A stretch of 56,730 nt of DNA. It comes from a virus. Within the stretch, counting starts at the first letter, position 1, and each line of letters opens with the position of its first letter. The stretch spans positions 1 to 56,730 of the IMG/VR virus record IMGVR_UViG_3300022752_000084; one strand, written 5' to 3'. The notes below the pieces were generated by a model. It was given only the letters and a program-made list of their open reading frames with translations. It made no database searches and was not told the origin of the DNA. Of this stretch, positions 16,814 to 43,501 are shown piece by piece. A program made the position numbers and the translations under genes.

Positions 16814-17185
16814 ATGAACAACTCCATGCTCATCATTCAACTTTATAAATATGCAGGAACCTGGGCCTTCACAGACGAAGCTCGTGACCTAACGCACGAA
16901 CCTTTTGTACTAGGCATCCCTGAAATTATTGACAAAATTTTAGAAGATAACGGTATAGTTTCAGAGCAACCTAAGATTCTATTTTCAGCTAAACCCTTTC
17001 CTTATCATCAAGGCTACCTTCATTATACAAACTTTGAAGCTGACGGGGTTTGGTATAAATTATTCTCGACAACTAGCGGAGAAGAAAAGTATGTAGACAA
17101 AAATCTAATTGGTTGGCTTTGTCCTGCGACTCTAAAATACTTCCCAGTACATCCCGAATACATTTACTTTAAACTCGAAGCTTAA
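16814..17185 (+). CDS. DUF6717-like protein
   Basis: 123 residues. The pattern 'I.YK.AGTWAFTD...L..EPFV.GI.E.ID', 'LFSAKPFP.YQ.....', 'WYK......' and 'GWLCPAL..YF...P..IY.K.E' is one I remember as a small family (DUF6717, from memory) in bacteria and phages; role unknown. It is a lone plus-strand gene in a minus-strand block, with its last codons (GAAGCTTAA) inside the 30-bp right-hand fibre repeat. It may therefore have come in by recombination there. Confidence 0.6.
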   Translation: MNNSMLIIQLYKYAGTWAFTDEARDLTHEPFVLGIPEIIDKILEDNGIVSEQPKILFSAKPFPYHQGYLHYTNFEADGVWYKLFSTTSGEEKYVDKNLIGWLCPATLKYFPVHPEYIYFKLEA

Positions 17186-17207
17186 CCACGCGGATCAGCA
17201 GTCGATG
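17178..17207. repeat. 30-bp fibre-cassette right-hand repeat, copy 1
   Basis: AAGCTTAACCACGCGGATCA followed by GCAGTCGATG. The same 30 bases recur at 34295 (one mismatch) and 40656, each at the downstream end of a tail-fibre cassette. It contains the CCACGCGG octamer and, in copies 1 and 3, encodes the minus-strand peptide end DAIDC-stop. Confidence 0.85.
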
Positions 17208-17257
17208 GCGTCGGCAAATTTGGGTAGGGTTTTGAGATGGAGGTGAAAAAGGTTATT
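17195..17257 (-). pseudogene. C-terminal remnant ...HLKTLPKFADAIDC behind a UGA
   Basis: Directly after the UGA of the 17258-17440 gene the same frame stays open for 20 codons and ends HLKTLPKFADAIDC-stop. The last 14 residues match the end of the 88-residue protein at 40673 (HLKTLPEFKDAIDC). Either the UGA is a disabling mutation or swap junction, or it is read through at low level. Confidence 0.6.
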
Positions 17258-17440
17258 TCATGTGATTGCATTAAGTTGCTCTTCGGTAGGTTGCGGCAAA
17301 GTCGGGTGTGTCCATTTGGCAATATACTCACCTCTTTCGTCATGGTCGTTCCTAAGAATGATATGGCGAGGTGGGCAATAATCCGCGTGAGTCAAAGATG
17401 GGTAGATCTCACGAATCTTTTGATCAAGGGTTTTTTCCAT
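17258..17440 (-). CDS. Small tail-fibre-associated protein (assembly-factor-like)
   Basis: 60 residues, starting 6 bases after the stop of tail fibre 1. The end EYIAKWTHPTLPQPTEEQL resembles the 'W....P.IP.PT.EEL' tail of XkdW/Tfa-type proteins encoded next to phage fibres, which assist fibre folding or cap the tip. That is a motif-level resemblance. It reads in frame, past its UGA, into a conserved C-terminal tag (see 17195-17257), so it may be a truncated form of a longer protein. Confidence 0.55.
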   Translation of the reverse strand: MEKTLDQKIREIYPSLTHADYCPPRHIILRNDHDERGEYIAKWTHPTLPQPTEEQLNAIT

Positions 17441-17446
17441 GGTTAA

Positions 17447-19465
17447 TCAAGAAATTGGGTTGGCGCAGAAGAAAGCCCCTGCGTAAACAGTTTTGGCTGC
17501 AGTTGCAGTAAAATCGTATTGGTAAAGGTAGATCGCAAGAGAATCTCCTACATCTGCATAAACAATATCGGCAATGGTAACAAAAAGATCACCCGCCGCT
17601 CCAGAAGGTCCATTGTTTTGGGTGTAACTAGCGGTAAATAGTGAACCGTTTTTGTATATCGCAATTTGCAACACGCAATCATTCGCTCCGGTTATGATTC
17701 CAGCTTTAGCTTTAATGTCATAATATCCAGCACGTGTTACAACAATAAAGCCCGATGCAGGATTGTATATGCCGCCTGTATCGTAATCTTCTACATCAAA
17801 CACAATGCGAGTAAGAGTATTGTTTGCAAGCGAAAAGGTGGCGGTTGTGCGTGCGCGAACAATCTGTCTTGGACTGCCTCCTCCAATCCTTGTTGCCACT
17901 GCAGCGCCAGCACCTGAAACGACCCCCGTGCAATTTGTTAATACAATTTGACTTGACGGAGATGACAAGCTGAGGCTTATATCTTCTAAAAGATTTAAGC
18001 AATTTAGCTTTGTAGAATTTAATGAGTGAGTTGGCGAGTTGCCATAATTAACCCAGTTTTCAACACTTTCCGCTATTACTACTGATGTGTTGTCTATGCC
18101 ACTAAAAGAAGCACTTGCGGAATTGGTATAAATGTTTCTAGCGATCAAACTAGAAATCGTATTTTGACTGGTTTTTATTAGCGTTGAAGCGTTATCTGCT
18201 AAATAAACCCCGTTTTCTATTAGCACGGAACTTGTAGCTTGAGAAGCAGTAGCGCGTACACCAAAATATGGTTTATTGTTTGTGCCATGCACGTTGGCAT
18301 AAAAACTAAGAAAGTTAATGTTTTTGCAATCGCTAATCTTGACATATTCGTCAGCAGTCAATAAAGCGGTTTGAGAGTTTTCAGAAGTAAAATTAACGAG
18401 TGTGATATTAAAGGAATTTTGAAAGAAAGCTAGGTGAGAGTAATTTACATCACCAGTTTCAATAGTAAGGCCATTGATTCTAATGTTAGAGCCCAAGTTG
18501 CAATATAAACCAGTGCCTGTATAATCTCCGATTGTGACCTGCTCCAGTGTCACATAATTTGTTGGGTTAGTTTGACCTAGCGCAATACCATTAGAGCAAT
18601 TAGAAATTATTATATCTTCTAAATGAGCCAAAGTTGATCCATCGACAACTAGAGCATATTCGTTGCCGGTTTGATTTTTTATGTATAGACGCTTTGTGTT
18701 TGTATGTTGCCCCCCTTGGCGAAAGGCAATTCCTGACCCTTGATTATTGTTAATTGTAAAATCTGAAACATAACTAAAACCTCCCGCGAGCCTAAGACCT
18801 GCGCCGGTTGCGCTGGTATTCTTTAAAATTGTCTTTTCGACACCAGCGCCAATTATTGTAATTGGTAGACCAGAATAAAGACCGTATCCTGATGGGTACG
18901 GTTGCACCTGGCTGCTTTCGCTAAAACAATAAGTACCTGTAGGAATATAAAGGATTGCACCACTACCTGTCCCTTGGCAATAAGACAAGCTAGCTTGTAG
19001 GGCAAGCGTATCATCCGTTACTCCATCCCCAACTGCACCAAAGTCCTTAACACTAACAACATCTTTCAGCTTGCTATCAACCGTCCTGGCAACAGCACTA
19101 GCTCCAGCTTGCAAGAAGTTTAACTTAGTCGCATTAATAGCTCCGCTTATATTTACATCAGCATCGATTATCGTACCGCTAGCAATCATTGTGCTAGTTA
19201 CAGTTTCAACATCACCTACAGTTACGACATTATACCCGTTTCTAGATAAAGTTCCAGATACAACTACACCTGATGCTGCGAATAACTGCCCGGTCATGTA
19301 GCCACCGGAAATCGGAACCTTGTTTGATGCAGATACTAACGCAGCATTACCCGAAGCCTGTGCTGTTGTATCAGTTCCAGGTACGGTATCGTTCGCCTCT
19401 AAAGTACGAAAGCCTCGCGGATAAAAGCCGCCACTGTATAGAACTACAGGAATTTGCACTACCAT
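17447..19465 (-). CDS. Tail fibre/tailspike 1 (pectate-lyase-like)
   Basis: 672 residues. Residues about 35-135 are the shared fibre N-terminal module (SASNKVPISGGYMTGQLFAA onward, then VDSKLKD), which probably attaches to the tail. From about 137, VSVKDFGAVGDGVTDDTLALQ opens a right-handed beta-helix of the pectate-lyase/tailspike type. The last 120 residues (RTTATFSLANNTLTRIVFDV ... AGYYDIKAKAGI) look like a C1q/TNF jelly roll, a usual receptor-binding tip. It would bind or degrade host surface polysaccharide. Start chosen for the TAATG overlap with the leader peptide. Fibre 1 has no 42-bp N-terminal repeat. Confidence 0.85.
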   Translation of the reverse strand: MVVQIPVVLYSGGFYPRGFRTLEANDTVPGTDTTAQASGNAALVSASNKVPISGGYMTGQLFAASGVVVSGTLSRNGYNVVTVGDVETVTSTMIASGTIIDADVNISGAINATKLNFLQAGASAVARTVDSKLKDVVSVKDFGAVGDGVTDDTLALQASLSYCQGTGSGAILYIPTGTYCFSESSQVQPYPSGYGLYSGLPITIIGAGVEKTILKNTSATGAGLRLAGGFSYVSDFTINNNQGSGIAFRQGGQHTNTKRLYIKNQTGNEYALVVDGSTLAHLEDIIISNCSNGIALGQTNPTNYVTLEQVTIGDYTGTGLYCNLGSNIRINGLTIETGDVNYSHLAFFQNSFNITLVNFTSENSQTALLTADEYVKISDCKNINFLSFYANVHGTNNKPYFGVRATASQATSSVLIENGVYLADNASTLIKTSQNTISSLIARNIYTNSASASFSGIDNTSVVIAESVENWVNYGNSPTHSLNSTKLNCLNLLEDISLSLSSPSSQIVLTNCTGVVSGAGAAVATRIGGGSPRQIVRARTTATFSLANNTLTRIVFDVEDYDTGGIYNPASGFIVVTRAGYYDIKAKAGIITGANDCVLQIAIYKNGSLFTASYTQNNGPSGAAGDLFVTIADIVYADVGDSLAIYLYQYDFTATAAKTVYAGAFFCANPIS

Positions 19466-19509
19466 TATTTAACTCCGCAGATGCCAGACATAGTTTCTAA
19501 GACCGGCAA
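19465..19509 (-). CDS. 14-codon leader peptide of tail fibre 1
   Basis: A TTG codon six bases after AAGGAG opens a frame encoding LPVLETMSGICGVK; its TAA overlaps the fibre ATG (TAATG). The same peptide with only C/H and V/D changes precedes fibre 2 (36527-36571). Conservation of the frame and the coupled stop suggest translation-coupled control of fibre synthesis, or a tiny structural peptide. Confidence 0.5.
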   Translation of the reverse strand: MPVLETMSGICGVK

Positions 19510-19576
19510 GACTTGCTCCTTACAGTTTAACTGGTTTTTGTAGTTTCAGCAAACACTATTAAAAAATAAGCCTCGG

Positions 19577-19885
19577 TTAACCACGCGCAATCTGCCTCTC
19601 AACACGGTGGTGAGGAACTCCTTGTTCTAATCCGCTCATTGCTCGCTGCAGTGGAACATCACCACCGAAGGGTTCTGTATACCCTTCGACCCCAAGTATC
19701 GAAGCAATAGGTCCAAACGGACCAGTCGCTTGAGAAATATTTCTTGTAAAGTCTGTAAACCCAGGATATCTGGATCGATACTTCTCATACTGCCCTGCCT
19801 TAGTTAGTTCGTCCCCAGAAGGGAGCGCAGATAATCCCAATCGACTACCTGCCATTCTAAATTTCCGAACAATAGGTAACGCCAA
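19577..19885 (-). CDS. Hypothetical virion-type protein
   Basis: 102 residues, basic, with Gly/Pro-rich loops (GPFGPIASILGVEGYTEPFGG) like the other minus-strand virion genes, e.g. 54691-55194. Starts 2 bases after the stop of the gene at 19888, so co-translated. No family recognised. Confidence 0.5.
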   Translation of the reverse strand: MALPIVRKFRMAGSRLGLSALPSGDELTKAGQYEKYRSRYPGFTDFTRNISQATGPFGPIASILGVEGYTEPFGGDVPLQRAMSGLEQGVPHHRVERQIARG

Positions 19886-19887
19886 GA

Positions 19888-20109
19888 TTAAACAAAGGGT
19901 AAGGAGGGACGAATTGATTGCTGCATGTAAGGCATCTCCCTCTGTTCACCTGGCATCACTGGTTCCCTAAAAGGCGATTTACCACCAGGAATTGCACCTC
20001 CTTCGCGTATTCTCCTGCCAACAGAAGGATCCACATTAGGCAAAGCCGCCATCAACAACTCTGGATCACTTAGATACATTTCTAAAAAAGCCACTGCTTG
20101 AGGATCCAA
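19888..20109 (-). CDS. Hypothetical virion-type protein
   Basis: 73 residues. N-terminal helix (QAVAFLEMYLSDPELLMAAL) then a Pro/Gly/Met-rich tail (GAIPGGKSPFREPVMPGEQRE). First gene of this minus-strand unit; divergent from the replication block. Function unknown. Confidence 0.5.
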   Translation of the reverse strand: MDPQAVAFLEMYLSDPELLMAALPNVDPSVGRRIREGGAIPGGKSPFREPVMPGEQREMPYMQQSIRPSLPFV

Positions 20110-20183
20110 AACAATTATTAAAGCTATTAAAAGTATAACTTCAAAACAAAAACCTACACAAGCTTAAGAAAGTCTAAAAAAAC

Positions 20184-20211
20184 TTGACGTCATAAATACA
20201 CCACATACACT
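20184..20211 (+). promoter_or_regulatory. Possible promoter TTGACG-16-TACACT
   Basis: A -35-like TTGACG (20184-20189), 16-base spacer and -10-like TACACT (20206-20211), 22 bases before the first gene of the replication block, in the divergent intergenic region. The -10 is imperfect. Confidence 0.4.
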
Positions 20212-20233
20212 GCATTTGTCTATCACTCTTCCA

Positions 20234-21064
20234 ATGGATTTTCAATTCAATCTCAGAGGCACAGCATTAGAACACCGAGAAGCCTCGGCGCTCTTGCAAG
20301 CATCAACTCCAAAAACAAAACAACCTTTTTCAATTGATCTTGAGAAACTTATAGATGTCAAAATACTTGACGCTAATAAGTTATTCTCCATGAGCGTCGA
20401 GCAGCAGAACCCTGTCCTAGCTTCGCTAGCTGTAAAGCTTGCAATCGAAAACAAAAAGACTCCGACAACCAAGCTTGCAGTTGCGAGCAAGAAAAAAGCA
20501 ACAACAAAGCTTGTTGCAACTCCAATCAAAACCCCGCCGAAGAAGGCCGCAAACACAACGGATGACATCATTGACTATTTGTTAATGCATCCTTCATATC
20601 GTTGCTGTGGCGCAGCAATGCTGCTTCTCAAAGGCAACACTAAGGACTGGCAAGCCATCAGAGACGTCGCTATCTCCGTCGTAAACGAAGCGGCTGATGA
20701 TCTGAAGCTCCCTTTATCTTCACCCTTATTTAAGGGCTTCACGCTTGATGCAGAGACGGATACCCTAATTCCGATCGAGAGCAATCAAGCCACGCGCAGA
20801 TGCGACACCTACTACGTTTCGCCTATGTACATCAGTCTTCGGGCTGGTCTTATGTTCTGCATTAAGCACAACCTCGTCAGCATCTCAGAAAATTGGACCG
20901 TTGGTTCTAGGAACGAAGAGTACAATGAAAAGTCAGGCCATCTAAAACGCCGCTACTACCTCTACAAGTTGACCGAACTTGGTGAGAAAATGTGTTCATC
21001 CTGGAGTGATATGGATAAATACATCTACAACTATTACACCCCTAAATCAGGTACTAACCGATGA
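20234..21064 (+). CDS. Lys/Ala/Thr-rich protein with possible winged-helix C-terminus
   Basis: 276 residues from the ATG at 20234 (a TTG six codons upstream is in frame). Three parts: a polar N-terminus; residues about 72-110 rich in Lys, Thr, Ala and Pro (KKKATTKLVATPIKTPPKKAA), like histone-H1 or HC2 tails; and a C-terminal domain with paired helices and a basic beta wing (RYYLYKLTELGEKM), suggesting a winged helix. It probably binds DNA. Its stop overlaps the start of the highly acidic protein that follows (ATGA). It heads the operon containing the DNA polymerase. Confidence 0.55.
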   Translation: MDFQFNLRGTALEHREASALLQASTPKTKQPFSIDLEKLIDVKILDANKLFSMSVEQQNPVLASLAVKLAIENKKTPTTKLAVASKKKATTKLVATPIKTPPKKAANTTDDIIDYLLMHPSYRCCGAAMLLLKGNTKDWQAIRDVAISVVNEAADDLKLPLSSPLFKGFTLDAETDTLIPIESNQATRRCDTYYVSPMYISLRAGLMFCIKHNLVSISENWTVGSRNEEYNEKSGHLKRRYYLYKLTELGEKMCSSWSDMDKYIYNYYTPKSGTNR

Positions 21065-21447
21065 CGGAACTTGTTAAAGACGTTCCCGGAGATCAAGAAG
21101 CGTTTATGTCCGGCATAGCGGACCTTTTCATGGACTACAGCACACTTTTGTCTCCCGAGACAATGTGTACTTTAATAAAGACCGTTATAACGGATCATTT
21201 AAACCACCATATAGACGAAGCCTGCACCTATTTAGCTCTAAGTAGACTTTTTGACGTGGACGTAAACGAGGAGGATGAGGACGAGGAAGAGGAGGATGAG
21301 GACGAGGATGAGGAAGAGGAGGATGAGGATTTCATAAATGAGGAGGGCTTTATGGCTGAAGTGGGTGTATACCACGAGGAGGCAGATGAGGAGAACGAGG
21401 AGGATGCGCCTAGCATAAAAGAAAGAGTAACTAACGATATATTTTAA
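21061..21447 (+). CDS. Acidic-tract protein (DNA-mimic or basic-protein partner?)
   Basis: 128 residues. An N-terminal helical region of about 60 residues is followed by an almost pure Asp/Glu run (about 67-90) and an acidic tail. The DNA is a purine-only tract (21271-21328). It overlaps the stop of the Lys-rich protein (ATGA), so the two are made together; an acidic chaperone or charge partner of the basic protein is a natural guess. Acidic tracts also occur in DNA-mimic anti-defence proteins. No known family. Confidence 0.6.
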   Translation: MTELVKDVPGDQEAFMSGIADLFMDYSTLLSPETMCTLIKTVITDHLNHHIDEACTYLALSRLFDVDVNEEDEDEEEEDEDEDEEEEDEDFINEEGFMAEVGVYHEEADEENEEDAPSIKERVTNDIF

Positions 21448-21482
21448 GAGTTACGTTGAGTAAACTCTGTTAGTGTAAGCGT

Positions 21483-21520
21483 CCTCGCTGCTTCGCAGCT
21501 GCGGGGGCGCATTCACTATT
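21483..21520 (+). repeat. Intergenic leader repeat, copy D (hairpin)
   Basis: Variant of the repeat upstream of 3374, 4851 and 6465, here with a perfect GCTGC-TTC-GCAGC hairpin (21487-21499) and the CGGGGGCGCATTCACTATTTAACACC-like tail. It lies just before the DNA polymerase start. The changed stem with kept pairing hints that the hairpin matters. Confidence 0.55.
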
Positions 21521-21527
21521 TAACACC

Positions 21528-23423
21528 ATGCAAACAAATTACGTTACAACACACGATCAATACGAAGCTTCCCTTGCAAAGCTTTCCCAACATAAAAAAC
21601 TTTGCCTCGACTTTGAAACCACGGGGCTCCAAGCTGGCATTGCTAAACCTCGCTTACTCCAACTTTGTGACAGTGATCCATCTGTTGAGGATCGTACTGT
21701 TCATGTTTTGGACTTATTTAAAGTTCCGCCTGACAACACACTCAAAGAACTGATTGAATCAAGGGAAATGATCATCGGTCATAACCTTAACTTCGATCTC
21801 CAGTTCTTGTACTACTTAGACATAGACTTCAAAAACAAAATCTTTTGTACATACATTGCTGAACGAATCCTACGTGCAGGCTTTAAAGAAAAAAGAGTAA
21901 GTCCTAAAGCTCAGAAAGCTTACTTCGCCGATGTTTCCTGTTCCCTTAAGGCTGTGGCTGATCGACGCCTCTCCTTGAAACTGGACAAAACACAACGGAT
22001 GACAGATTGGAGTCAGCTCGATCTAACCCTAGAACAAGTTGAATACGCCGCTGGTGACGTAGATATTCTTCCTCAAATTGCTTCAGATCAATTAGCAGAG
22101 ATGCGCGAAGAAAACTTGTTAGCAATATATAGTATTGAATCCAAATGTATACGTCCCGTTGCAAAGATGTGCTACACAGGTTTCTGTGTTGATATTGAAC
22201 TACTAAAAAAACTAAAAGAATCTATTACAAAAGAACTAGAGGATAAAAGTAATCAATTTATAACTCAACTAGACTCCAATCTTCCAGATGATTCTAAATT
22301 ACCTAGAACAGTAGATGGTGCTGTTGCGATTGGAAAAAAACCTTTAAAGGAATTTAACCCAGGATCACCAACTCAGATTGTCAAGTACTTTACTGCCTGT
22401 GGTATCGCACTACCTGCTGATTCCGATACCGGTAAAGCTACTTTGAACCAGGTTGCCTTATCCGAATTTGATAGCGACGATGCCACGCTGAATTTATACC
22501 GAGAAAGGGCGAAAGTTGAAACTCGTTTAGAACATGTAAATAAACTAATTGATAACATCAATCCTGTAACACACAGGATTCATTCCGGTTACAACCAGGT
22601 GGGCGCGAATTCTGGCAGATTCACAAGCAGCGGTGCCCCAAAGACAACCAAAAAAGCCGGGAAAACGGTCTTTTCAATAAATCTGCAACAAGTTCCACGT
22701 TCTAAAAACTTCAGAGAGTGCTTTATTGCGGCGCCGGGATACAAACTTGTGATTTGCGACTGGGCACAAATAGAACTGAGGTTGGGTGCCGAGTTGATTA
22801 ACATCCCGCAAATGAAACAAGCTTTTGTATCTGACATTGATTTGCATACGATGACCGCAAGCTTAATCTATAAAAAAGATATAAATCTCGTTACAAAAGA
22901 GGAAAGACAGGATGGAAAAACACTGAACTTTGCGTTGCTTTACGGAATGGGTTTTCGAAAATACAAAACTTATGCTGCGCAGAGTGGCAGAAACCTGACC
23001 TTATCAGAAGCAAAAATTGCCCATGCGGCATTTCACTCTGCTTATCCTCGTTTACGTTCATGGCATCAAGAACGAGCTGCTCTTGTACAAGATGGTTGGA
23101 CTTACATTCGTACACCGTGTGGTCGTCGCCGGTTACTCAGTTACGATGACGCAACCATGATGTGTGCTGCCAACACTTTGATTCAGGGTAGTGGCGCAGA
23201 TATTCTAAAAATTGCTATTGCAAATTTAGATAAACATTTAGATGACACAGTGCGGTTAGTAGCTGCTGTACATGATGAAATCGTTTTAGAAGTCGAAGAA
23301 TCTAAAGCTGAGACCTATAAACATATTCTTGAGACGACAATGATCCACGCTGCGCAAACAGTGCTAAATTCTGTTCCAGCATCAGCAGATGCGAGTGTTG
23401 GATCCTCTTGGGCAGCAAAATGA
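21528..23423 (+). CDS. polA: DNA polymerase, family A (exonuclease + polymerase)
   Basis: 631 residues, the short phage form without a 5'-3' exonuclease. The 3'-5' exonuclease has DFETTG (D28, E30), GHNLNFD (to D90) and YAAGDVD (about 175-181). The polymerase has motif A VICDWAQIELRLG (D411), motif B K464-TLNFALLYG, and motif C VHDEIV (H582, D583, E584). The residue equivalent to E. coli Phe762 is Phe. It is the replicative polymerase of the phage. The next gene's ATG overlaps its stop (ATGA). Confidence 0.97.
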   Translation: MQTNYVTTHDQYEASLAKLSQHKKLCLDFETTGLQAGIAKPRLLQLCDSDPSVEDRTVHVLDLFKVPPDNTLKELIESREMIIGHNLNFDLQFLYYLDIDFKNKIFCTYIAERILRAGFKEKRVSPKAQKAYFADVSCSLKAVADRRLSLKLDKTQRMTDWSQLDLTLEQVEYAAGDVDILPQIASDQLAEMREENLLAIYSIESKCIRPVAKMCYTGFCVDIELLKKLKESITKELEDKSNQFITQLDSNLPDDSKLPRTVDGAVAIGKKPLKEFNPGSPTQIVKYFTACGIALPADSDTGKATLNQVALSEFDSDDATLNLYRERAKVETRLEHVNKLIDNINPVTHRIHSGYNQVGANSGRFTSSGAPKTTKKAGKTVFSINLQQVPRSKNFRECFIAAPGYKLVICDWAQIELRLGAELINIPQMKQAFVSDIDLHTMTASLIYKKDINLVTKEERQDGKTLNFALLYGMGFRKYKTYAAQSGRNLTLSEAKIAHAAFHSAYPRLRSWHQERAALVQDGWTYIRTPCGRRRLLSYDDATMMCAANTLIQGSGADILKIAIANLDKHLDDTVRLVAAVHDEIVLEVEESKAETYKHILETTMIHAAQTVLNSVPASADASVGSSWAAK

Positions 23424-23917: not shown

Positions 23918-23948
23918 GCTAATATAAAGAAGGTTACGTTAGCAGCTC

Positions 23949-25790: not shown

Positions 25791-25800
25791 TTTTCCTCCC

Positions 25801-26610: not shown

Positions 26611-26629
26611 CTTAAACTCCCTTTTTACT

Positions 26630-26660
26630 AGGCGGCCTATGCCGCCTTATTTTTTTATCT
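26630..26660 (+). terminator. Rho-independent terminator
   Basis: A 7-bp perfect stem (AGGCGGC / GCCGCCT) with loop CTAT is followed by TATTTTTTTAT. It ends the operon from 20234. Confidence 0.88.
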
Positions 26661-26672
26661 ATCTGAACTATT

Positions 26673-33999: not shown

Positions 34000-34046
34000 A
34001 GTCGAGACTTTGACGGGACCGTCGTACACTTCTAAGTTTATCTTAG

Positions 34047-34271
34047 CTAACGATTATCTGCGCGATTCGTTGATCGAGAAATAACTCTTAAATTATCGTT
34101 TTCTCGATTATGGGGATTGTGATCTTTATGATCTACATCCTTGCCATCGCCTTTATGAACACGGCCTTCTTTTTCTAAGTAACGACGAGATTTATTTCGT
34201 GCGGATCTACGTGCTATTTCCGCATCACTGCTTTGGAACTTGCGGTACTCGTCTTTATAATCGCGGGGCAT
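34047..34271 (-). CDS. Small HNH-type endonuclease
   Basis: 74 residues. It is a very common small phage HNH protein: DYKDEYRKFQSS... ARRSARNKSRRYLEKEGRV then KGDGKDVDHKDHNPHNREN then DNLRVISRSTNRADNR. The DVDHKDHNP...N..NLRV core is the HNH site. Proteins of this kind are found near structural genes. It may be a packaging-linked nicking enzyme or a mobile gene. Confidence 0.8.
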   Translation of the reverse strand: MPRDYKDEYRKFQSSDAEIARRSARNKSRRYLEKEGRVHKGDGKDVDHKDHNPHNRENDNLRVISRSTNRADNR

Positions 34272-34294
34272 AGAGTAAATGACTAGCTTGGTTT

Positions 34295-34324
34295 AAGCTT
34301 AGCCACGCGGATCAGCAGTCGATG
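34295..34324. repeat. 30-bp fibre-cassette right-hand repeat, copy 2
   Basis: Same sequence as at 17178 with one A-to-G change (AGCC for AACC). It lies directly downstream of the tail fibre 2 stop. Confidence 0.85.
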
Positions 34325-34325
34325 A

Positions 34326-36527
34326 TTATAAAGTCGCCATCATAAACATTAGAAGTTCTTCATATCGAATGCCGTAGCGATCTCCAGCAGGTTTTAATTC
34401 AATACCCTCCTCATCGTATTCGGCTTCCCATTGGTCATAACAAACAATGCCATAGCGGAAAGGATCAAGCTGTTCCTCCTCAAAAATTTCCATAACTTCT
34501 TGAGTAAGTACACCTATATGTATTCGCGCATTTTCGCCTTTCAACAAAACAGCATCTTTAAACAAAAACTTTTTAATTATTCTTTTAATTTTTTTAGCTA
34601 CTCTTTTTTCTGCTTCATTTAATTCTTCAATGTTTTGTTTTTCGCGTTTATCAGATGTATTAATGGTGCCAGTTGCCGCGTAAACGGTACTCCAGCGATA
34701 AGCTGAATCCCCTAATTTTGCAACATTATCAGCGCCAGGCAAAAGATAATTATACTTAAGGTAATATATGTCTCGTGATCCCGAAGAATCTTGAAAAGTA
34801 AACCGACGGGTATTGTCATAAATAGTAAATACACAACCATTATTGGCATCGTTTGTATTTGTAATAATGCTAATTTTAAGAGTTCCCGCTGTGGATATTT
34901 TTAATCCTGCCACGTTGGATGAAAAATGGTCAATTATAAGATGTGTTTGATCATTTGTAACAGTAGAATACGCAGAAGAATCTCCTACAACTACATTTAC
35001 GCCAGTGTTACTATAAGTATGTAAAGTATTTCCTAAGATTTGATTACTAACAGTTAAATTACCTAAAATATTTTGAGAACCAAGGCTTTGGCTTCCTTTT
35101 TGATAAAAATTAGCATAATCAATACTTGTATTAGCTAACGCCGTTGCGTCTGGAGTGCCAATAGCAAGTACCCCTGAAGGAGGTGTATAACTCAAATAAC
35201 CTTCAATATAAGACAACGCAGGGTTATATCCTATCCCGTAATTATCTCTAATAGCCGCTCCAATTCCCCCAGCAATTAAAATAGTGTCATAATTTCCTTC
35301 AAACCAGTTATTATTAATAAAAGAACTTTCTCCGTCTAATCTAATTGCTCTGCCTTTATTATTGTTTTCAAAAACACAGTTAGAAATAAACCACGTCTGT
35401 GTTCCACTAAGATCTAACGCTTCACACTCGTTTCGGTTTATAGCTGTTGATTTACCAACGCTAAAGTGGCATGCAGTAATTGCAAAGCTAGTGCCAGTTC
35501 TCATAGCACCCGTAGTCTTACTATAAGCTAAACCTTTATTAGATACATATTGAATATCGCAATATTCAACGCAACACGATATGCAATCATCAAACTGTAA
35601 AGCAATCCCCGCCCCAACATCAGTGGCACCCGGCCTAGCTAAACCTCCTATTGAACATTGACAAACCAAACAACGATCTGTTCCTTCAATCCATAATTGC
35701 GTAACATTAACAAAATTGGCAAATGTGTATATAGCAGAAGGCTGATACAACTTGAGTGCAAGACCTGCTATTTGAGAGCGATTTTGACCTTTATAAACAA
35801 CAACTTTTTTGCTAGTTCCTTGAAAGGAAGCCGCCTTACCATAAATGCCTATGCCAGTTTCAGCTCCTCCTCCAGTATTATTTCCAAAAATACTTAAACT
35901 TTTACCTCCTCCTCCTCCGTAACTTGCCCCAGAAGTGTTCCAATCAACAGTATCAGAAACAAGAATTTTGCCAATAATTAATAAGGGCAAACTAGAATTT
36001 ACTGCGGCAACAGCAGCATTTTTTAATCTAGTATGGTTATTGCCATCATCAGTCAAATCTCCAGGAATCCCAAAATCTGCTGTGCTGATAAAATCTTTCA
36101 GCTTACTATCAACAGTTCTAGTAGCGGCCCCAGTACCAGCTTGCAAGAAACTAAGTTTAGTTGCATTAATAGCTCCACTTATATTGACATCCGCATCAAT
36201 GATCGTACCGCTAGCAATCATTGTGCTAGTTACAGTTTCAACATCACCGACAGTTACGACATTATACCCGTTTCTACTTAACGTACCTGATACAACTACA
36301 CCTGATGCTGCAAATAACTGTCCGGTCATGTAGCCACCGGAAATTGGCACCTTATTTGATGCAGATACTAATCCCGCGTTACCCGACGCTAGTGCAATAT
36401 TTGCTAGGACTAATGCAGCATTACCCGAAGCCTGTGCTGTTGGATCCGTCGCTGGTCCAATAGTATCCCCAGGAGGAAGAGTACTAAAAGCACCACTAAC
36501 AAGAACTAAAGGAGTTTGAAGTGCCAT
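34326..36527 (-). CDS. Tail fibre/tailspike 2 with S74 intramolecular chaperone
   Basis: 733 residues. The shared N-terminal module spans about 40-155 and contains one extra 14-residue repeat (LANIALASGNAGLV) compared with fibre 1. The middle is a beta-helix with many Asn/Cys/Ser residues. The C-terminus begins SDKREKQNIEELNEAEK and continues GVLTQEVMEIF, the peptidase_S74 auto-cleaving chaperone that aids trimer folding. The terminal GIRYEELLMFMMATL is also typical. A host-receptor adhesin at the tail tip. The region is AT-rich, unlike the distal part of fibre 3. Confidence 0.88.
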   Translation of the reverse strand: MALQTPLVLVSGAFSTLPPGDTIGPATDPTAQASGNAALVLANIALASGNAGLVSASNKVPISGGYMTGQLFAASGVVVSGTLSRNGYNVVTVGDVETVTSTMIASGTIIDADVNISGAINATKLSFLQAGTGAATRTVDSKLKDFISTADFGIPGDLTDDGNNHTRLKNAAVAAVNSSLPLLIIGKILVSDTVDWNTSGASYGGGGGKSLSIFGNNTGGGAETGIGIYGKAASFQGTSKKVVVYKGQNRSQIAGLALKLYQPSAIYTFANFVNVTQLWIEGTDRCLVCQCSIGGLARPGATDVGAGIALQFDDCISCCVEYCDIQYVSNKGLAYSKTTGAMRTGTSFAITACHFSVGKSTAINRNECEALDLSGTQTWFISNCVFENNNKGRAIRLDGESSFINNNWFEGNYDTILIAGGIGAAIRDNYGIGYNPALSYIEGYLSYTPPSGVLAIGTPDATALANTSIDYANFYQKGSQSLGSQNILGNLTVSNQILGNTLHTYSNTGVNVVVGDSSAYSTVTNDQTHLIIDHFSSNVAGLKISTAGTLKISIITNTNDANNGCVFTIYDNTRRFTFQDSSGSRDIYYLKYNYLLPGADNVAKLGDSAYRWSTVYAATGTINTSDKREKQNIEELNEAEKRVAKKIKRIIKKFLFKDAVLLKGENARIHIGVLTQEVMEIFEEEQLDPFRYGIVCYDQWEAEYDEEGIELKPAGDRYGIRYEELLMFMMATL

Positions 36528-36571
36528 TATTTATCTCCGTGTATGCCAGACATAGTTTCTAAGACCGGCAA
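36527..36571 (-). CDS. 14-codon leader peptide of tail fibre 2
   Basis: TTG start, encoding LPVLETMSGIHGDK, with the TAA overlapping the fibre ATG (TAATG). It differs from the fibre 1 leader at two of fourteen residues (C/H and V/D); the frame, start and overlap are kept. Confidence 0.5.
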   Translation of the reverse strand: MPVLETMSGIHGDK

Positions 36572-36618
36572 GACTTGATTCCCTAAGTTTAGCTGGTTTT
36601 TGCAGTTTAAGCAAACAC
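36542..36618. repeat. Fibre upstream repeat, second copy (first at 19481-19557)
   Basis: About 75 bases upstream of fibres 1 and 2 are largely the same, including TAGTTTCTAAGACCGGCAAG and a CTGGTTTTTG...GTTT..GCAAACACT tail. It covers the leader peptide and probably a promoter or Shine-Dalgarno for these genes. Confidence 0.7.
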
Positions 36619-36649
36619 TCTGCATAATCTCCACATGGGAACAGATTCC

Positions 36650-37891: not shown

Positions 37892-37894
37892 GGC

Positions 37895-38329
37895 TCAATA
37901 CACGTCAACTCCAACCCGATATTCACAACCACTGCGGCCTTTTAGTGCTACATACATATAATGAGCACCAGATGCGTTAATTGTAGTTTTAGTTACCGCG
38001 TTATTGCGTGAGCTTAATTTAGAAGGTTTAGCTTCCATAACCAAACTGCCGGCACTATTTAAGATCGCAACATTACCAACACTGTTTATATTCCGAATGT
38101 TTACTTGTAAGATCCCAGTCGCATTCAATGTCAGTGGATAATAATCGGATATTGAATAAAATCCGTCTGCAACATATTCCCTAGATGTTTGAGTATTCAC
38201 AACCACGCCGCTGTTACTTACCACTCGGCGCTGGTCGAAATGTGTCGAAGTGTCACGCTGGCGTCCGCCTGTAGATACACCACTAGCAAGGACTACATCC
38301 AGTTCTAAATTTTTAGTAAACTGCGACAT
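37895..38329 (-). CDS. Hypothetical beta-rich virion protein
   Basis: 144 residues from the ATG at 38329 (MSQFTKNLELDVVL). An upstream extension to 38431 lacks coding character. Beta-rich with Ser/Thr/Asn, ending YVALKGRSGCEYRVGVDVY. It resembles small jelly-roll domains in virion adhesins. It starts 3 bases upstream of the endolysin, so probably co-transcribed with it. Confidence 0.55.
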   Translation of the reverse strand: MSQFTKNLELDVVLASGVSTGGRQRDTSTHFDQRRVVSNSGVVVNTQTSREYVADGFYSISDYYPLTLNATGILQVNIRNINSVGNVAILNSAGSLVMEAKPSKLSSRNNAVTKTTINASGAHYMYVALKGRSGCEYRVGVDVY

Positions 38330-38430
38330 TTGGCAGACAGGTCTAACTTTCCATATTCTACTCGGTATTCGTAAGCATGGCTCTTTTAATTTTTTAGTTA
38401 GACTGACGTAGAGATCTACCCGGCAAAACA

Positions 38431-38685
38431 ATGTTTGTCACTATATTAACAGGTGTTGGCGGTGCTATTGCCCTGTTTACCTGGCTTCATGAGCAGCGTC
38501 AACAGGTTTTGAATGCGCGTTTTGAAAATATAAAAAAGCGGCTTTCTTATATCGAAAGAAAACTTGAAGAATTACCCATAAATTTTGTTTTAAAATCCGA
38601 TTTAAATGACGAACTAAATGATATTAGAACTTGGCTCCGTTCGATAAACGACAAGCTAGACCAGCTTATTCTTAACAAAAGATAA
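38431..38685 (+). CDS. Membrane-anchored coiled-coil protein (holin or spanin-like?)
   Basis: 84 residues with one N-terminal membrane segment (VTILTGVGGAIALFTWL), then a basic coiled coil (VLNARFENIKKRLSYIERKL then EEL) and an acidic, amphipathic tail (DLNDELNDIRTWLRSINDKL). Its place next to the endolysin, but on the opposite strand, suggests a lysis function such as a holin or inner-membrane spanin; not proven by motif. Confidence 0.5.
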   Translation: MFVTILTGVGGAIALFTWLHEQRQQVLNARFENIKKRLSYIERKLEELPINFVLKSDLNDELNDIRTWLRSINDKLDQLILNKR

Positions 38686-38690
38686 AATAC

Positions 38691-39359
38691 TTAGGATATT
38701 TGATTAATTGTAACAATTAATGAAGGGATGTCAGGTCTTGTTGGATTTGTTAAACCGCTGTAAGCGGCAATCTTGACATTTACATCTGCAGAAGACCAAG
38801 CTAACTGGATATTATCTCCTTCACCCGCATTAACAAAGTAATTCCACGCGGCAACGCTTTTTGCGTTATTTCCTTGTAAAGTTATCCGTGTATTTGTATA
38901 CGGAACATTTTGATTATTTTTAACAACCCAAATATCTATTTCGTCTGTTCCCCCATCTGTTTTAATTAGTTGAGCAGAAAACTGAACATCATAAACTCCA
39001 GATAAAGGTACAACCATCCGTGAACCAGAAACCAGAGTAACTCCGTCAGTAGAAGACACGGAATTAAGTGTCATTATATTTACACCAGTTGCTGTTACAT
39101 TATTTTGAAATGTTGTATCAAAAAAAGCGCCATATTGGTGCGAGGTTTGTACAGCCTGCGCAAAAACTGGTAGGGTGCTCATGGAGTTCACCACACCGCT
39201 CAACGTTATTTGCTTAGGTTGGGCGTCAGCTTGAATTTCATTCGTATCTAGAACTAAAAAAACATCGTTTTCCCCAATATTTGCAGTAGAAACTAGGTCA
39301 GTTAGACGCGAAACGGAACGACTAAAATCACGAGCATCGTCTAAATTCCTGCGTACCAT
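38691..39359 (-). CDS. C1q/TNF-like adhesin
   Basis: 222 residues. A linker-like N-terminus is followed by a jelly-roll C-terminal domain (about 85-222) with the C1q pattern: F..T.F......, TLVSGSRMVVPLSGVYDVQF, SAQLIKTDGG, IDIWVVKNNQNVPYTNTRIT and ...NYFVNAGEGDNIQLAWSS. Trimeric C1q-like domains are used in phage receptor-binding tips. It lies between two HNH/endolysin genes in the fibre block. Confidence 0.65.
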   Translation of the reverse strand: MVRRNLDDARDFSRSVSRLTDLVSTANIGENDVFLVLDTNEIQADAQPKQITLSGVVNSMSTLPVFAQAVQTSHQYGAFFDTTFQNNVTATGVNIMTLNSVSSTDGVTLVSGSRMVVPLSGVYDVQFSAQLIKTDGGTDEIDIWVVKNNQNVPYTNTRITLQGNNAKSVAAWNYFVNAGEGDNIQLAWSSADVNVKIAAYSGLTNPTRPDIPSLIVTINQIS

Positions 39360-39378
39360 GAATTTTAAAAATTTAATC

Positions 39379-39789
39379 TTATTCTACTTCAGTTTCGCCT
39401 TCTGGCGAAGCAGACAATTTTAACGGTTTTTTACACAATTCTTCGTAATTTCGTGCAGCAATACTTTGTTCATGATTATAACTAAGCCAATTCCATATAT
39501 TGCTTTCTCGTTCCTCGGTCCAAAAAAATTGTTGGCGGAACCATGTAAACCATTCTTCGTCGCTTTTTTGTAAGTTGCAGGTTGGGCAACACGCTAATAA
39601 ATTTCCTCGTTTTGTTGGGCCGCCACGCGCTCGGGGAACTATGTGATCCAGGGTGTAGGCGCGATCAGATCCGCAATACGCGCAAGCGTCTCCCCAAGCT
39701 TCAAGTATATCTTTACGAAATCTTTTACGTGCATTCCTACGTTGTAAACAAGAAAGATTAAAAACTAAATCATCTTCGGAGGCGGTCAA
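39379..39789 (-). CDS. HNH endonuclease with CxxC zinc site
   Basis: 136 residues. The core CAYCGSDRAYTLDHIVPRAR then GG..K.GNLLACCPTCNLQKS has the two CxxC pairs and the LDHIVPR..GG...NLL.CC..CN..K motif of bacterial-type HNH nucleases. It is followed by W-rich residues (EWFTWFRQQFFW). It may be a free-standing homing-type nuclease, or act in packaging. Confidence 0.85.
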   Translation of the reverse strand: MTASEDDLVFNLSCLQRRNARKRFRKDILEAWGDACAYCGSDRAYTLDHIVPRARGGPTKRGNLLACCPTCNLQKSDEEWFTWFRQQFFWTEERESNIWNWLSYNHEQSIAARNYEELCKKPLKLSASPEGETEVE

Positions 39790-39846
39790 ACCAACATTCC
39801 GACTAACCTATTCTACTTATAAAAAAGTACCAGTTGACTCTTTAAT

Positions 39847-40044
39847 TCAATAAAATTTCTTTTTGATCTCTTCAATTTTGTCATCTTCGGTTCTGAAATT
39901 TTTAAGAATACGCACTCCTTTTATAAAGAGCTGCGCTACGCTATTCTGACGTAACTTGCTAAGTCCGATCACTTCTGAACTAATAAATAATAGAAAGAAG
40001 AATAGAGCTTCCCACGAGATTTTAAACCCAAGAATCGTTAACAT
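39847..40044 (-). CDS. Small membrane protein, holin candidate
   Basis: 65 residues: one or two hydrophobic segments (ISWEALFFFLLFISSEVIGL, VAQLFIKGVRIL) and a charged Lys/Asp/Glu tail. I remember a similar pattern ('ISWE..VF....GSE....P.K.NS..QLL') in cyanophage small membrane proteins annotated as unknown or holin-like. It lies in the lysis/fibre block, 3 kb upstream of the endolysin. Confidence 0.5.
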   Translation of the reverse strand: MLTILGFKISWEALFFFLLFISSEVIGLSKLRQNSVAQLFIKGVRILKNFRTEDDKIEEIKKKFY

Positions 40045-40079
40045 AGTTGTGAGATAACTACGTCTAGTCTAGCTTAATT

Positions 40080-40655
40080 TTTTAATAGAGGATTACTTCC
40101 TTTCCTTGAGCCCTTTCATCGGGCCATGCCTTGGGTCGCTAAAGATCATTATCGCACGCATTGAAGCCGCTCTAGTACGTGTTGCTGAACACAAATCGCT
40201 GGTTTGCTTCGCATTTCTCTCATGGCCCCAGTAAAGGTGACTACTCGTGATTGGGAAGTTGTTCAAGGGCGCGGCAGATAGTGTCAAGTTCGCTGATATT
40301 CTACTTTTCTTTCCCGAAGTTAAAGGGAGTTATAACTCCCGTATTGACCTTCGTTGCGGGAGTTATAAGTACTGCAAAGAAGAAATGATAACAAAAATAG
40401 AGGCATTTATCAATGCTTACCGGAATTAGTGCAATATTGGGAAGGTGACTACTCGGATTCCCGATAGTTGGCGTTTATCGAGAAAACAAGTTCGTCGGCA
40501 ATGTCGAGCACATCTTGACGGATGGCATCAGCACCAACTATCCGGTAATTCCAGATAGTTGCTAAAGCTCATTATCGCACGCATTAAAGCCGTTCTTGTA
40601 CGCATTGCTGAACACAAACCAATACCTGCCAGACCCAGTAACGAAGGTGACTATT
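40080..40655. other. Decayed, internally duplicated segment
   Basis: Two copies of a 57-base unit (40139-40195, 40562-40618) read in the plus frame as LKIIIARIEAALVRVAEHK and LKLIIARIKAVLVRIAEHK, each followed 80-95 bases later by AAGGTGACTA. A third AAGGTGACTA is at 40443. Neither unit has an obvious start; stop codons lie upstream. The middle also holds a repeated GGGAGTTATA. A possible 60-residue plus-strand frame (40247-40429, GTG start) overlaps it. It looks like remnants of a duplicated gene at the edge of the fibre 3 cassette. Confidence 0.55.
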
Positions 40656-40685
40656 AAGCTTAACCACGCGGATCAGCAGTCGATG
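40656..40685. repeat. 30-bp fibre-cassette right-hand repeat, copy 3
   Basis: Identical to copy 1 (17178-17207) over 30 bases. It covers the stop codon and last residues (AIDC) of the 88-residue protein downstream of fibre 3. Confidence 0.85.
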
Positions 40686-40939
40686 GCGTCTTTAAACTCG
40701 GGAAGAGTCTTCAGGTGCTCGTAGGCCTGTTTGATGGGATTTGGCCCATCAAGATCCACGGGGAACTCGAATGACTTGATAGATAACGGCACGGCGGTGT
40801 TGGCAGCCTCGCTATTCAGATAAATGCTGGCTGAAAATGTGCCGCTTGTTTTCTTTTCTATTAGGACGGATTCAATCCTGCAATAACAACCGTCTGCCTG
40901 GAAGCCAAAAGGCGTTGTGGTGCTGATCAAAAGGGCCAT
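40673..40939 (-). CDS. Small tail-fibre-associated protein
   Basis: 88 residues, 49 bases after the fibre 3 stop. 'MALLISTTTPFGFQADGCYCRI' then '.SV.IEKK..GTF.A.IYLN' is a pattern I remember for short proteins next to cyanophage fibres. The C-terminal tag HLKTLPEFKDAIDC also occurs behind fibre 1 (17195-17240). It may cap or help fold the fibre. The GC content is higher than in the upstream genes, like the distal part of fibre 3. Confidence 0.6.
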   Translation of the reverse strand: MALLISTTTPFGFQADGCYCRIESVLIEKKTSGTFSASIYLNSEAANTAVPLSIKSFEFPVDLDGPNPIKQAYEHLKTLPEFKDAIDC

Positions 40940-40988
40940 GGTTTTGCTGCGTAAATAATTTTCAGAGTAGCACCGCTGAGTGCTGGGA

Positions 40989-42992
40989 CTAGGTTGTGCT
41001 CAGAAGGTAGCCATCAAGACGACACCCTGCTGGACTTGTGCTTGGCGTCCCCACCACAAGCACATAAAGCTCTACTGTTTCGTTGACGGCCAGCTTCAGC
41101 ACTGCGCTTACTGAGCTGCCATACCCGGTCATCAATGGAGTCTTGGAGCGCAGTACGCCGTTTTGATAAAGGGCTACCGTGTTAATTGCGGATGCATCCA
41201 GCTCAACCGAACCGTTGAACTGGTAATAGCCTGGCACAATGGCAGTAAATGTGCTGCTTGCGAATTCACCAAATGAATCCCATGTCTCCGTTCCATCCAG
41301 GATGACTTTTGTCCATGTGATATTTGCCAATGTTTGAACCGTGCTGCCAATCGCTCTGAAGGTTGACGTGTTGTTGAGCGGCCTAGCAAGGAGATACCTA
41401 GTCGGCTTGGTTGTTTCAATGAAGCCGATGTTCTTCAGTGACTGCCCTGATTGGTTATTGACGATGTAACCGGAAGCTCCGCAGTCTGCGTATCCGCCAA
41501 CCACTGAATTGCTTGCGCCGGTGATGTAGTAGGCGGTGTCATAAGCGCCTACCTGGTTAAATGAAAAACAGGCAAAGAAAGCGGCAGACTTGATGGAGTA
41601 GTAATGGTTCTCAATACTGTTATTGGCCACCACCGCCGCTGGAGCATTGCTGGTCAGCTCAACGCCAATTGTGTTTGCACCAGGGGTTCCAGAGTGCACC
41701 AGTGTGTTAGCAGAAATTAGAAAGCTGCCTGTCTGGTTGTTCGGTGCAATTTTGATGTAACTTTGTCCAGTGCCAATGGCGTCCGTGGTGCTTGAAATCA
41801 GCGTGCAACCCAAAACTTTACTTTTGCCAGCGGCTCCTTCCAGGCTAATTCCAGTACTTTTAAATCCTTCTGAATGGCAATTCTGAAAGATTGCATAACC
41901 AGCACTGCTTGAAACTCCACTTCCTTGGACTTGGTAAGCAATTACACCACCATCAGATTTGCAATTAAAGAAATGAGCAAACGGCCCCCTAACATGATAT
42001 GCTGCATAAAGAGGAGCTGATGGATATTGCCCGTTTGGCATATTGACATAACATTGATTAAAGTCCCAAGCATACGAATCAAGATAATCGCTTGGATTAT
42101 CCATGTAAAAGCCGTATTCACGGCAACGCATGACAACTACTCGTTCAAATCTAGACCCACGTGCGTATTGAAAATAAACACCTCGCGTAGCTATATTTTG
42201 TCCATCAAGAAATAAATCATAAAGTCCGTTTTGAAACTCGCCAGCAGGATTTTGTGTTTGGCTAATCATATAAATAGATTGATCTGTAGTTATTGTTGCT
42301 CCGTACCTTGTGGCATTTGGTGCATTTTCAGAAGTCAATCCCCTTAAACCCACGTTGGGTTTTAAAATAATTGGGGAAGTTATATAATAAGTGCCTGCAG
42401 GAAAACAAACATCAGAATAACCGTATCCAGTTGCGGCAGCGTTGATTGCATTATTAATAGCGTTTGTACAATCTACTGCTCCATTAGGATTAGCTCCAAA
42501 ATCTAAAACACTAATAAAATCCTTCAGCTTACTATCAACCGTCCTGGCAACACCGCTTGCGCCAGCTTGCAAAAAATTAAGTTTAGTTGCATTAATAGCT
42601 CCACTTATATTTACATCCGCATCGATTATCGTACCACTAGCAATCATTGTGCTAGTTACAGTTTCAACATCACCTACAGTTACGACATTAAATCCGTTTC
42701 TAGATAAAGTTCCAGATACAACTACACCTGATGCTGCGAACAACTGCCCGGTCATGTAGCCACCGGAGATTGGCACCTTATTTGATGCAGATACTAATCC
42801 CGCGTTACCCGACGCTAGTGCAGTACCTGCTAGAACTAATCCAGCGTTACCCGACGCTAATGCAGTATTTGCTAGAACTAACGCAGCATTACCTGAAGCC
42901 TGTGCTGTTGTATCAGTTCCAGGTACGGTATCTCCGGGAAATAACTGGCTAAAGAAACCACTAGCCAATACAATGGGACTTTGTATAGTCAT
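40989..42992 (-). CDS. Tail fibre/tailspike 3 (pectate-lyase-like), mosaic
   Basis: 667 residues. The shared N-terminal module (about 20-160) contains two extra 14-residue repeats (LANTALASGNAGLV, LAGTALASGNAGLV). From about 160, ISVLDFGANPNGAVDCTNAI begins a beta-helix domain, and the last 110 residues form a C1q-like tip (W..FGEFASSTFTAIVPGYYQ then FNGSV.L). The distal coding region (40989 to about 41900) is clearly richer in GC than the proximal half, which points to a recent module swap. The start overlaps the stop of the upstream gene (TAATG). Confidence 0.85.
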   Translation of the reverse strand: MTIQSPIVLASGFFSQLFPGDTVPGTDTTAQASGNAALVLANTALASGNAGLVLAGTALASGNAGLVSASNKVPISGGYMTGQLFAASGVVVSGTLSRNGFNVVTVGDVETVTSTMIASGTIIDADVNISGAINATKLNFLQAGASGVARTVDSKLKDFISVLDFGANPNGAVDCTNAINNAINAAATGYGYSDVCFPAGTYYITSPIILKPNVGLRGLTSENAPNATRYGATITTDQSIYMISQTQNPAGEFQNGLYDLFLDGQNIATRGVYFQYARGSRFERVVVMRCREYGFYMDNPSDYLDSYAWDFNQCYVNMPNGQYPSAPLYAAYHVRGPFAHFFNCKSDGGVIAYQVQGSGVSSSAGYAIFQNCHSEGFKSTGISLEGAAGKSKVLGCTLISSTTDAIGTGQSYIKIAPNNQTGSFLISANTLVHSGTPGANTIGVELTSNAPAAVVANNSIENHYYSIKSAAFFACFSFNQVGAYDTAYYITGASNSVVGGYADCGASGYIVNNQSGQSLKNIGFIETTKPTRYLLARPLNNTSTFRAIGSTVQTLANITWTKVILDGTETWDSFGEFASSTFTAIVPGYYQFNGSVELDASAINTVALYQNGVLRSKTPLMTGYGSSVSAVLKLAVNETVELYVLVVGTPSTSPAGCRLDGYLLSTT

Positions 42993-43501
42993 TACTGATA
43001 CAGAGCAACAGGTGCATCTATCTCTACTTCAAGCTCAGCGGCACTCAACGCTGTCCCAATCAAAACTAAAGCTTGATACTGATTAGTACCCGAATTTGTA
43101 ACCAATCCAGAGGCTGTAGAGTACCTGGTTATTTGACCAGGGAATTTAGATAAATAGTAGGGCTGCCCAGGAACAAGTGAAGTTTCTGCAGTAATATTTG
43201 CACTGCTGATGGTAGCAGCATCATCAAAGATAACATTAACACCCGAGTTAGTGACAGCTGCTTGCCCGGTTATACCAAACGCCCCATAATTGAAAGATGC
43301 GATTCCGCTTAAAGCACTGGCATTAAACACTTTTAAGCCACTTACATATACCGCTGCTCCTTGAACAAGAGTTTCGCCCGCAACAAATGCTGCAGAACTA
43401 GGTAAAGATGTTACAACTCCCGCGCCATTTACCAAATAAACTTCCTGCGTACCGGAGTTAAAACTCGTGTACCTACGATTAAAAATAGAACGATCAGTCA
43501 T
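42992..43501 (-). CDS. Small virion/adhesin protein, paralogue of 43543
   Basis: 169 residues, beta-rich. Its plan matches the next upstream protein (43543): 'GE.LV.GAAVYVS..', 'IS.......LVPGQPYYLS..PGQITRY....', 'L.GTALS..ELEVEI..PV..'. The pattern (a PGTxYYLS..PGQ core) is common in phage fibre-linked beta-modules. The stop is TAATG-coupled to fibre 3, implying co-expression and maybe use as its adaptor. Confidence 0.6.
   Translation of the reverse strand: MTDRSIFNRRYTSFNSGTQEVYLVNGAGVVTSLPSSAAFVAGETLVQGAAVYVSGLKVFNASALSGIASFNYGAFGITGQAAVTNSGVNVIFDDAATISSANITAETSLVPGQPYYLSKFPGQITRYSTASGLVTNSGTNQYQALVLIGTALSAAELEVEIDAPVALYQ

Follow-up and report, generated by a model that had tools for sequence, protein, structure and literature searches.

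Three tail-fibre loci with a shared N-terminal module, alternative alleles and gene-end remnants in a virus genome and its relatives

Three fibres with one end in common

We analysed a virus record of 56,730 bases, IMGVR_UViG_3300022752_000084 (the window), in which three large minus-strand open reading frames (ORFs) encode tail fibres at three separate loci (Table 1). An earlier note on this DNA had proposed that the three fibres share an N-terminal module of about 100 residues, that one 30-bp repeat lies behind each of them (17178, 34295, 40656), and that the beta-helix and tip domains between these fixed ends are unrelated, all of which the alignments bear out. The module is 85-87% identical over 300 nucleotides (nt) among the three copies, and a core of 91 amino acids (aa) within it is nearly invariant as protein, with DNA that is 88-92% identical between loci (synonymous divergence, dS, 0.32-0.49; nonsynonymous divergence, dN, 0.015-0.05). 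Beyond the module the fibre bodies are, by sequence comparison, unrelated: the one significant protein match is faint and joins the tips of fibres 1 and 3 (30% over 74 aa, E=0.005), and at the DNA level there is a single match of 44 nt between fibres 1 and 2 (E=0.002). The note had also named gradual divergence along the whole cassette as the pattern that would contradict this layout; identity instead ends at the module, so the layout stands. The constant N-terminus and variable C-terminal body of a modular receptor-binding protein locus are directly visible here, and among close relatives differing bodies are found at one and the same locus.

The start of fibre 1 holds a further similarity, absent from the earlier note, in that some 90 bp ahead of its start codon are common to locus 2. 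Specifically, fibre 1 is a mosaic in which a locus-2-like leader is followed by a stretch identical to fibre 3 at 36 of 37 nt, a pattern suggesting that sequence has been exchanged between loci and not just between strains.

Table 1. Features at and around the three fibre loci of the window
Feature	Coordinates	Strand	Remarks
DUF6717 gene	16814..17185	+	convergent with locus 1; stop inside repeat; borders the single adhesin locus in cousins
30-bp repeat, copy 1	17178..17207	-	accessory-gene end joined to end of convergent DUF6717 gene
11-bp direct repeat CGCGTGGTTAA, distal	17182..17192	-	distal end of fibre-1 insert
Orphan accessory-gene 3' remnant (..NNLFHLHLKTLPKFADAIDC*)	17195..17257	-	cut off by upstream TGA
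XkdW-family small gene, 60 aa	17258..17440	-	follows fibre 1; belongs to a family close to tail-fibre assembly proteins
Fibre 1, 672 aa	17447..19465	-	N-terminal module, pectate-lyase-type beta-helix (PF12708 4.5e-15), weak C1q/TNF-like tip
Shared N-terminal module, copy 1	19038..19337	-	
Leader and first codons of fibre 1	19424..19557	-	81% identical to locus-2 36486-36619
11-bp direct repeat CGCGTGGTTAA, proximal	19577..19587	-	proximal end of fibre-1 insert; last codons (..RG*) of 102-aa gene
102-aa gene	19577..19885	-	stop codon is insertion point of fibre-1 cassette
HNH endonuclease gene	34047..34271	-	borders locus 2; in all four strains and cousins
30-bp repeat, copy 2	34295..34324	-	last codons of lost accessory gene joined to locus-2 right flank
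Fibre 2, 733 aa	34326..36527	-	N-terminal module, unrelated body, C-terminal Peptidase_S74 intramolecular chaperone (PF13884 3.7e-9)
Shared N-terminal module, copy 2	36070..36369	-	
Lysozyme/C39 gene	36650..37891	-	bounds locus 2 on the side away from the HNH gene; in cousin L093 the two genes directly overlap
Remnant ..NPLLKN*	40074..40096	-	3' end of 61-aa gene, whole at this locus in L088
Remnant ..DTICRALEQLPNHE*	40238..40285	-	96% over 48 bp to gene 3' end in L099
Remnant-like 3' end ..INANYRESE*, then TAGTCACCTT	40449..40520	-	unassigned
30-bp repeat, copy 3	40656..40685	-	overlaps end of accessory gene 40673-40939
Fibre-3 accessory gene, 88 aa	40673..40939	-	probable tail-fibre chaperone, conserved C-terminal helix tag
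Fibre 3, 667 aa	40989..42992	-	N-terminal module, beta-helix (PF12708 1.3e-12), weak C1q-like tip
Shared N-terminal module, copy 3	42496..42795	-	missing at same locus in L088
169-aa tail gene	42992..43501	-	constant boundary of locus 3; protein 95% identical in L088
GCGTGG sites	36 sites from 1599 to 54618 (-); 2064, 29309 and 53732 (+)	-/+	

Empty, swapped and scarred alleles in related strains

A near-identity DNA search of known phages with the window gave no match, and the loci were compared with related metagenome contigs (L004, L088, L096, L180 and L182, and cousins including L089 and L092-L095). Strains with a backbone 88-97% identical to the window differ, between them, at all three loci. 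A search of relatives for the same loci with other bodies, as the earlier note had advised, found other adhesins or none in these near-identical backbones.

At locus 1 the fibre-1 cassette is a 2.4-kb insert with CGCGTGGTTAA on either side, a direct repeat that the earlier note missed; none of 200,000 random junction pairs reaches an identity of 11 bp. The empty allele is directly observed in L096, which is 94-96% identical to the window at the nucleotide level on both sides and is without 17193-19576. In that contig the site is intact, the DUF6717 gene directly meets the 102-aa gene, and the two gene ends overlap at GCGCGTGGCTAAGCTTCGAG. Because L096 is empty, and because the outgroup L089 likewise shows no adhesin where its 994-aa-type gene meets the polymerase-side genes, the insertion at locus 1 is probably derived. 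L089 also has the 3' end of its 994-aa-type gene duplicated beside its adhesin locus (10426-10519; 85% over 94 bp), a further case of a gene end that has been dispersed.

The earlier note further held that two small genes, behind fibres 1 and 3, share a 14-residue C-terminal tag. Only the gene behind fibre 3 ends in this tag. The ORF at 17258-17440 stops at its own TGA, and HLKTLPKFADAIDC then follows in the same frame past that stop; the copy behind fibre 1 is an orphan fragment, and the in-frame TGA rules it out as the end of an expressed gene.

At locus 2 four strains (the window, L004, L180 and L182) have four adhesin sets. L004 is 97% identical to the window over 7.8 kb and 90% on the lysozyme side, and at this locus has another fibre body together with a 99-aa accessory gene and a 61-aa gene; L180 (95%) and L182 (88%) have two further sets, and in the cousin L093 the lysozyme and HNH genes touch, leaving the locus empty. 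Replacement has left traces directly readable at gene ends. Behind fibre 2 the tagged accessory gene is reduced to its last codons (ATCGACTGCTGA) with no gene body, and in L004 the natural end of the 61-aa gene (..EEPSNQEH* in L093) is replaced by ..KKEPPRG* via the junction sequence of the 30-bp repeat.

Relatives of the HNH gene at 34047-34271 lie beside locus 2 in every strain seen, and a second HNH gene (39379-39789) borders locus 3. These nucleases might cut co-infecting genomes and so cause co-conversion of the adjoining adhesin genes. We regard this explanation as unlikely, since locus 1 has no HNH gene, both HNH genes are kept even where the locus is empty (L093), and their cutting activity is only predicted.

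At locus 3 of L088 (91%), seven other ORFs replace fibre 3 and its accessory gene, and among them is a whole 61-aa gene of which the window keeps the last codons. The window in fact holds a series of 3' gene-end remnants behind fibre 3 (40074-40655), not described in the earlier note, one of which, ending ..LEQLPNHE*, comes from a gene known from Synechococcus phages and is 96% identical to its counterpart in L099. The remnants behind fibres 1 and 3 indicate that replacement repeatedly cut at gene ends. Directly past the stop codons of the remnants behind fibre 3, TAGTCACCTT occurs three times (40449-40460, 40240-40250 and 40640-40656), and it forms a second boundary-like sequence. A strong hairpin, GGGAGTTATAACTCCC followed by TTT (40325-40340), also lies in this remnant region and is partly common to L095.

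All of the records compared are assembled contigs, and assemblers can be misled by repeats, which raises the question of whether the window is a metagenome chimera joined at the repeated modules. Such an artefact is highly improbable given that the modules differ by 8-14%, that the right-hand repeat is just 30 bp long, and that both empty and filled alleles are found intact in independent contigs, where the gene-end scars make sense.

The 30-bp repeat and the exchange of cassettes

The 30-bp repeat has exactly three sites in the contig, with none further when 3 mismatches are allowed and none in a reversed-pattern control. Its copies have at most one difference between loci, whereas the modules have drifted at synonymous sites, and this indicates that the repeat spread later than the modules or is constrained. 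In the fibre sense it consists of CATCGACTGCTGA, TC, CGCGTGG and YTAAGCTT, with a GTTAAGC core inside it. An accessory gene contributes the first part, its end (..AIDC*), as in 40673-40939 and in L004, and CGCGTGGYTAAGCTT is the native overlap of the ends of the 102-aa and DUF6717 genes at locus 1. From its sequence we read the repeat as a composite scar, an accessory-gene end joined to a convergent gene-junction sequence that is native at locus 1. In the cousins and in L089 the single adhesin locus adjoins DUF6717, so that a cassette once located there would take the junction sequence along. For locus 2, GGCTAAGCTTAAA is its own right flank in L180 and L182; this makes the exact route by which the repeat arose uncertain, whereas its composite nature is firm.

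The earlier note had treated the repeat as the right-hand bound of the cassettes. It is indeed present at all three loci, but it is not a purpose-built anchor: it offers at most 10-15 bp of microhomology and is missing from most other variants. An exact 22-bp part of it was not found elsewhere in viral contigs, and an 18-bp part matched L004 again as well as L178 and L179, two contigs that were not taken as relatives: the sequences flanking the match are unlike those of the window, as for a chance match. A role as terminator was also rejected, since the locus-3 copy yielded no terminator-like site and such sites are no commoner in 39900-43100 than in shuffles.

The clean empty site in L096 and the 11-bp direct repeats that flank the insert raise the alternative of site-directed mobility, in which a dedicated enzyme (a recombinase, a transposase or a homing-type nuclease) inserts the cassette at CGCGTGGYTAA and leaves the direct repeats behind. 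Each of the three loci has this core, two copies of it surround the 61-aa gene of L004, and HNH genes border loci 2 and 3. However, no tyrosine or serine recombinase was detected in the contig, the HNH genes are fixed backbone genes that lie outside the cassettes, the variants in L180, L182 and L088 are without the core at the variable side, and known gene ends explain the 30-bp repeat. We consequently find a dedicated insertion enzyme improbable. The cousins L091 (6788-7642) and L099 (4134-4988) have a gene that is tyrosine-recombinase-like by its sequence and that the window is without.

Instead, we consider it likely that the three regions are hypervariable adhesin loci, and that recombination between genomes sharing a cell exchanges whole cassettes there. 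In such an exchange the cassette would comprise a fibre with a near-constant N-terminal module, presumably for docking to the virion, and a body and tip for host recognition, with a presumed effect on host range. On the left, crossing over would take place within the shared module or the ASGNA-type repeats preceding it, and on the right at gene ends, where short identities would be enough and the last codons of old accessory genes would stay behind. The 102-aa/DUF6717 junction sequence, copied along with cassettes, could then have served as a short target for insertion at the empty locus 1. The earlier note's proposal of adhesin swapping by homologous recombination is supported by L004, L180 and L182 at locus 2, by L088 at locus 3 and by the empty locus 1 of L096, and the left module behaves like an anchor where the right-hand repeat does not. 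L088 and the window diverge before the module, within the ASGNA repeats. Between the window and L004 the module is about 93% identical up to about nt 215, like the neighbouring lysozyme gene (95%), and then 69%; this drop was rejected as specific to the L004 swap because most pairs drop at the same place, and it is weak evidence for a crossover. Apart from these alignments, two fibres of the cousin L093 (2236-5263) consist largely of long runs of ALASGNAAL-type repeats, and the same repeat precedes the module in the window.

The orientation of the repeats bears on where such exchange would take place. All of them are direct, and recombination within one molecule would delete 6-23 kb including replication genes; exchange between co-infecting genomes therefore fits better than exchange within a molecule, and the swaps or inversions between cassettes of one genome that the earlier note had envisaged are not expected. 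The same deletion of 6 to 23 kb speaks against phase variation, whereby a single genome would flip or swap its own three cassettes. The modules and repeats common to the three loci and the mosaic of locus-2-like and locus-3-like pieces in fibre 1 are congruent with such switching, but no invertase catalytic domain or reverse transcriptase was found in the window, and we hold the chance of it to be very small. An invertible fibre system of the Mu G segment or shufflon kind (direct repeats only, no site-specific recombinase found), a diversity-generating retroelement (no reverse transcriptase in the genome) and an integron-type gene cassette (tyrosine integrase not found) were likewise rejected.

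Several observations weigh against exchange between co-infecting genomes as set out here. Since most pairs lose identity at the same module position, the exact place of the crossover is unproven; the right half of the repeat is of uncertain origin among the loci, because L180 and L182 have GGCTAAGCTT as the flank of locus 2 too; the window encodes a PD-(D/E)XK-type exonuclease, but none of its ORFs scanned was recognised as coding for an annealing protein; and the alleles are known from assembled metagenome contigs alone, mostly with one contig per variant.

The cassette joints also contain GCGTGG, which among the hexamers of the window is both the most over-represented and the one with the strongest strand bias (36:3, where 8.5:5.8 would be expected, irrespective of gene direction; 32:3 when the cassette joints are left out). 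The same polarity is seen in L004, L096, L180, L182 and L090, and it is weak or absent in several cousins (L089, L092-L095). In phage T7 all 36 EcoP15I sites have one orientation (PMC12707154), a parallel that accounts for the bias of GCGTGG but not for its excess. The motif may be a recombination hotspot, a signal for replication or a pattern related to restriction. It is a doubtful but conceivable extension that the adhesin cassettes are mobile units preferring CGCGTGGYTAA at gene ends, to which a GCGTGG hotspot steers them in a lytic phage.

Folding helpers, known systems and likely host

The accessory gene behind fibre 3 belongs to phrog_18037, a family of unknown function. A tag of the type QAYEHLKTLPEFxxAxDC ends all of its 82 homologues, and 77 of the 82 lie behind an ORF of more than 200 aa, which is the position directly behind a fibre that is occupied by chaperones of the Tfa/gp25 type. 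In Pam3 gp24/gp25 and Mu Tfa, the gene behind the fibre codes for a variable N-terminal beta part and a conserved C-terminal helix (PMC9608196); the variable beta domain of gp25 and Tfa grips the fibre tip, which is TNF-like in Pam3, and the conserved helical end serves for trimerisation (PMC9608196). The structure model of the accessory protein (mean predicted local distance difference test score, pLDDT, 86.8) has beta strands followed by a C-terminal helix that corresponds to the tag, and it thus predicts the same plan of a variable beta part and a conserved helix. PDB and Foldseek searches of solved structures gave no match in sequence or fold, so homology to these chaperones is not indicated. 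By analogy, the accessory protein probably works like Pam3 gp25 and Mu Tfa, and we do not class it as a member of that group. A relationship of the family to the XkdW gene was rejected on comparison. The resemblance to the Tfa-type plan suggests that a cassette tip comes with its own folding aid. Overall, a cassette tends to carry a tip together with such a helper, which would differ in kind from locus to locus: an XkdW-type gene, a C-terminal S74 domain or a helix-tagged accessory gene. With its near-invariant tag the accessory family looks like a common but undescribed fibre partner in environmental phages, and the tag could be a hook for finding adhesins in metagenomes.

Adhesin exchange in T4-type phages takes place at one long-tail-fibre locus, whereas the window has three loci in one genome, one of them empty in a near-identical strain, and scars at gene ends. 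In lambdoid phages, short conserved gene-border sequences between modules coincide with recombination joints; the boundary sequence of the window differs in being common to three adhesin loci of one genome. The PeSLs of T4-type phages carry promoter stem-loops, in contrast to the 30-bp repeat, which reads as a composite of two gene ends. As summarised in PMC3797505, these mobile regulatory cassettes have short intergenic repeats as modular shuffling sites (Arbiol et al. 2010), and the same paper describes frequent shuffling of C-terminal fibre domains, together with the adhesin behind these, in T4-type phages whose genomes are otherwise conserved. That exchange, of the gp37 tip and of gp38, is like the window in shuffling tips on a conserved genome. 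Modular adhesin exchange is already known, and what is new here is three loci with fossil gene ends. The strains form an unusually clear natural series within nearly one species, in which adhesin loci are empty, filled or refilled and the joints can be read to the base. Such a series makes it testable how lytic phages gain new receptor-binding proteins and exchange old ones, and how many specificities can be combined on one virion.

For the backbone and the remnant genes, the relatives among known phages are mostly Synechococcus phages. The 79.8-kb contig L005, related to Synechococcus phage S-EIV1, has at 9413-11824 this N-terminal module together with a related S74 tip, in an otherwise different genome. 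The window is likely to derive from a freshwater virus with a cyanobacterial host. Its backbone also includes a ferritin-like gene (51381-51911; PF00210, 1.9e-13).

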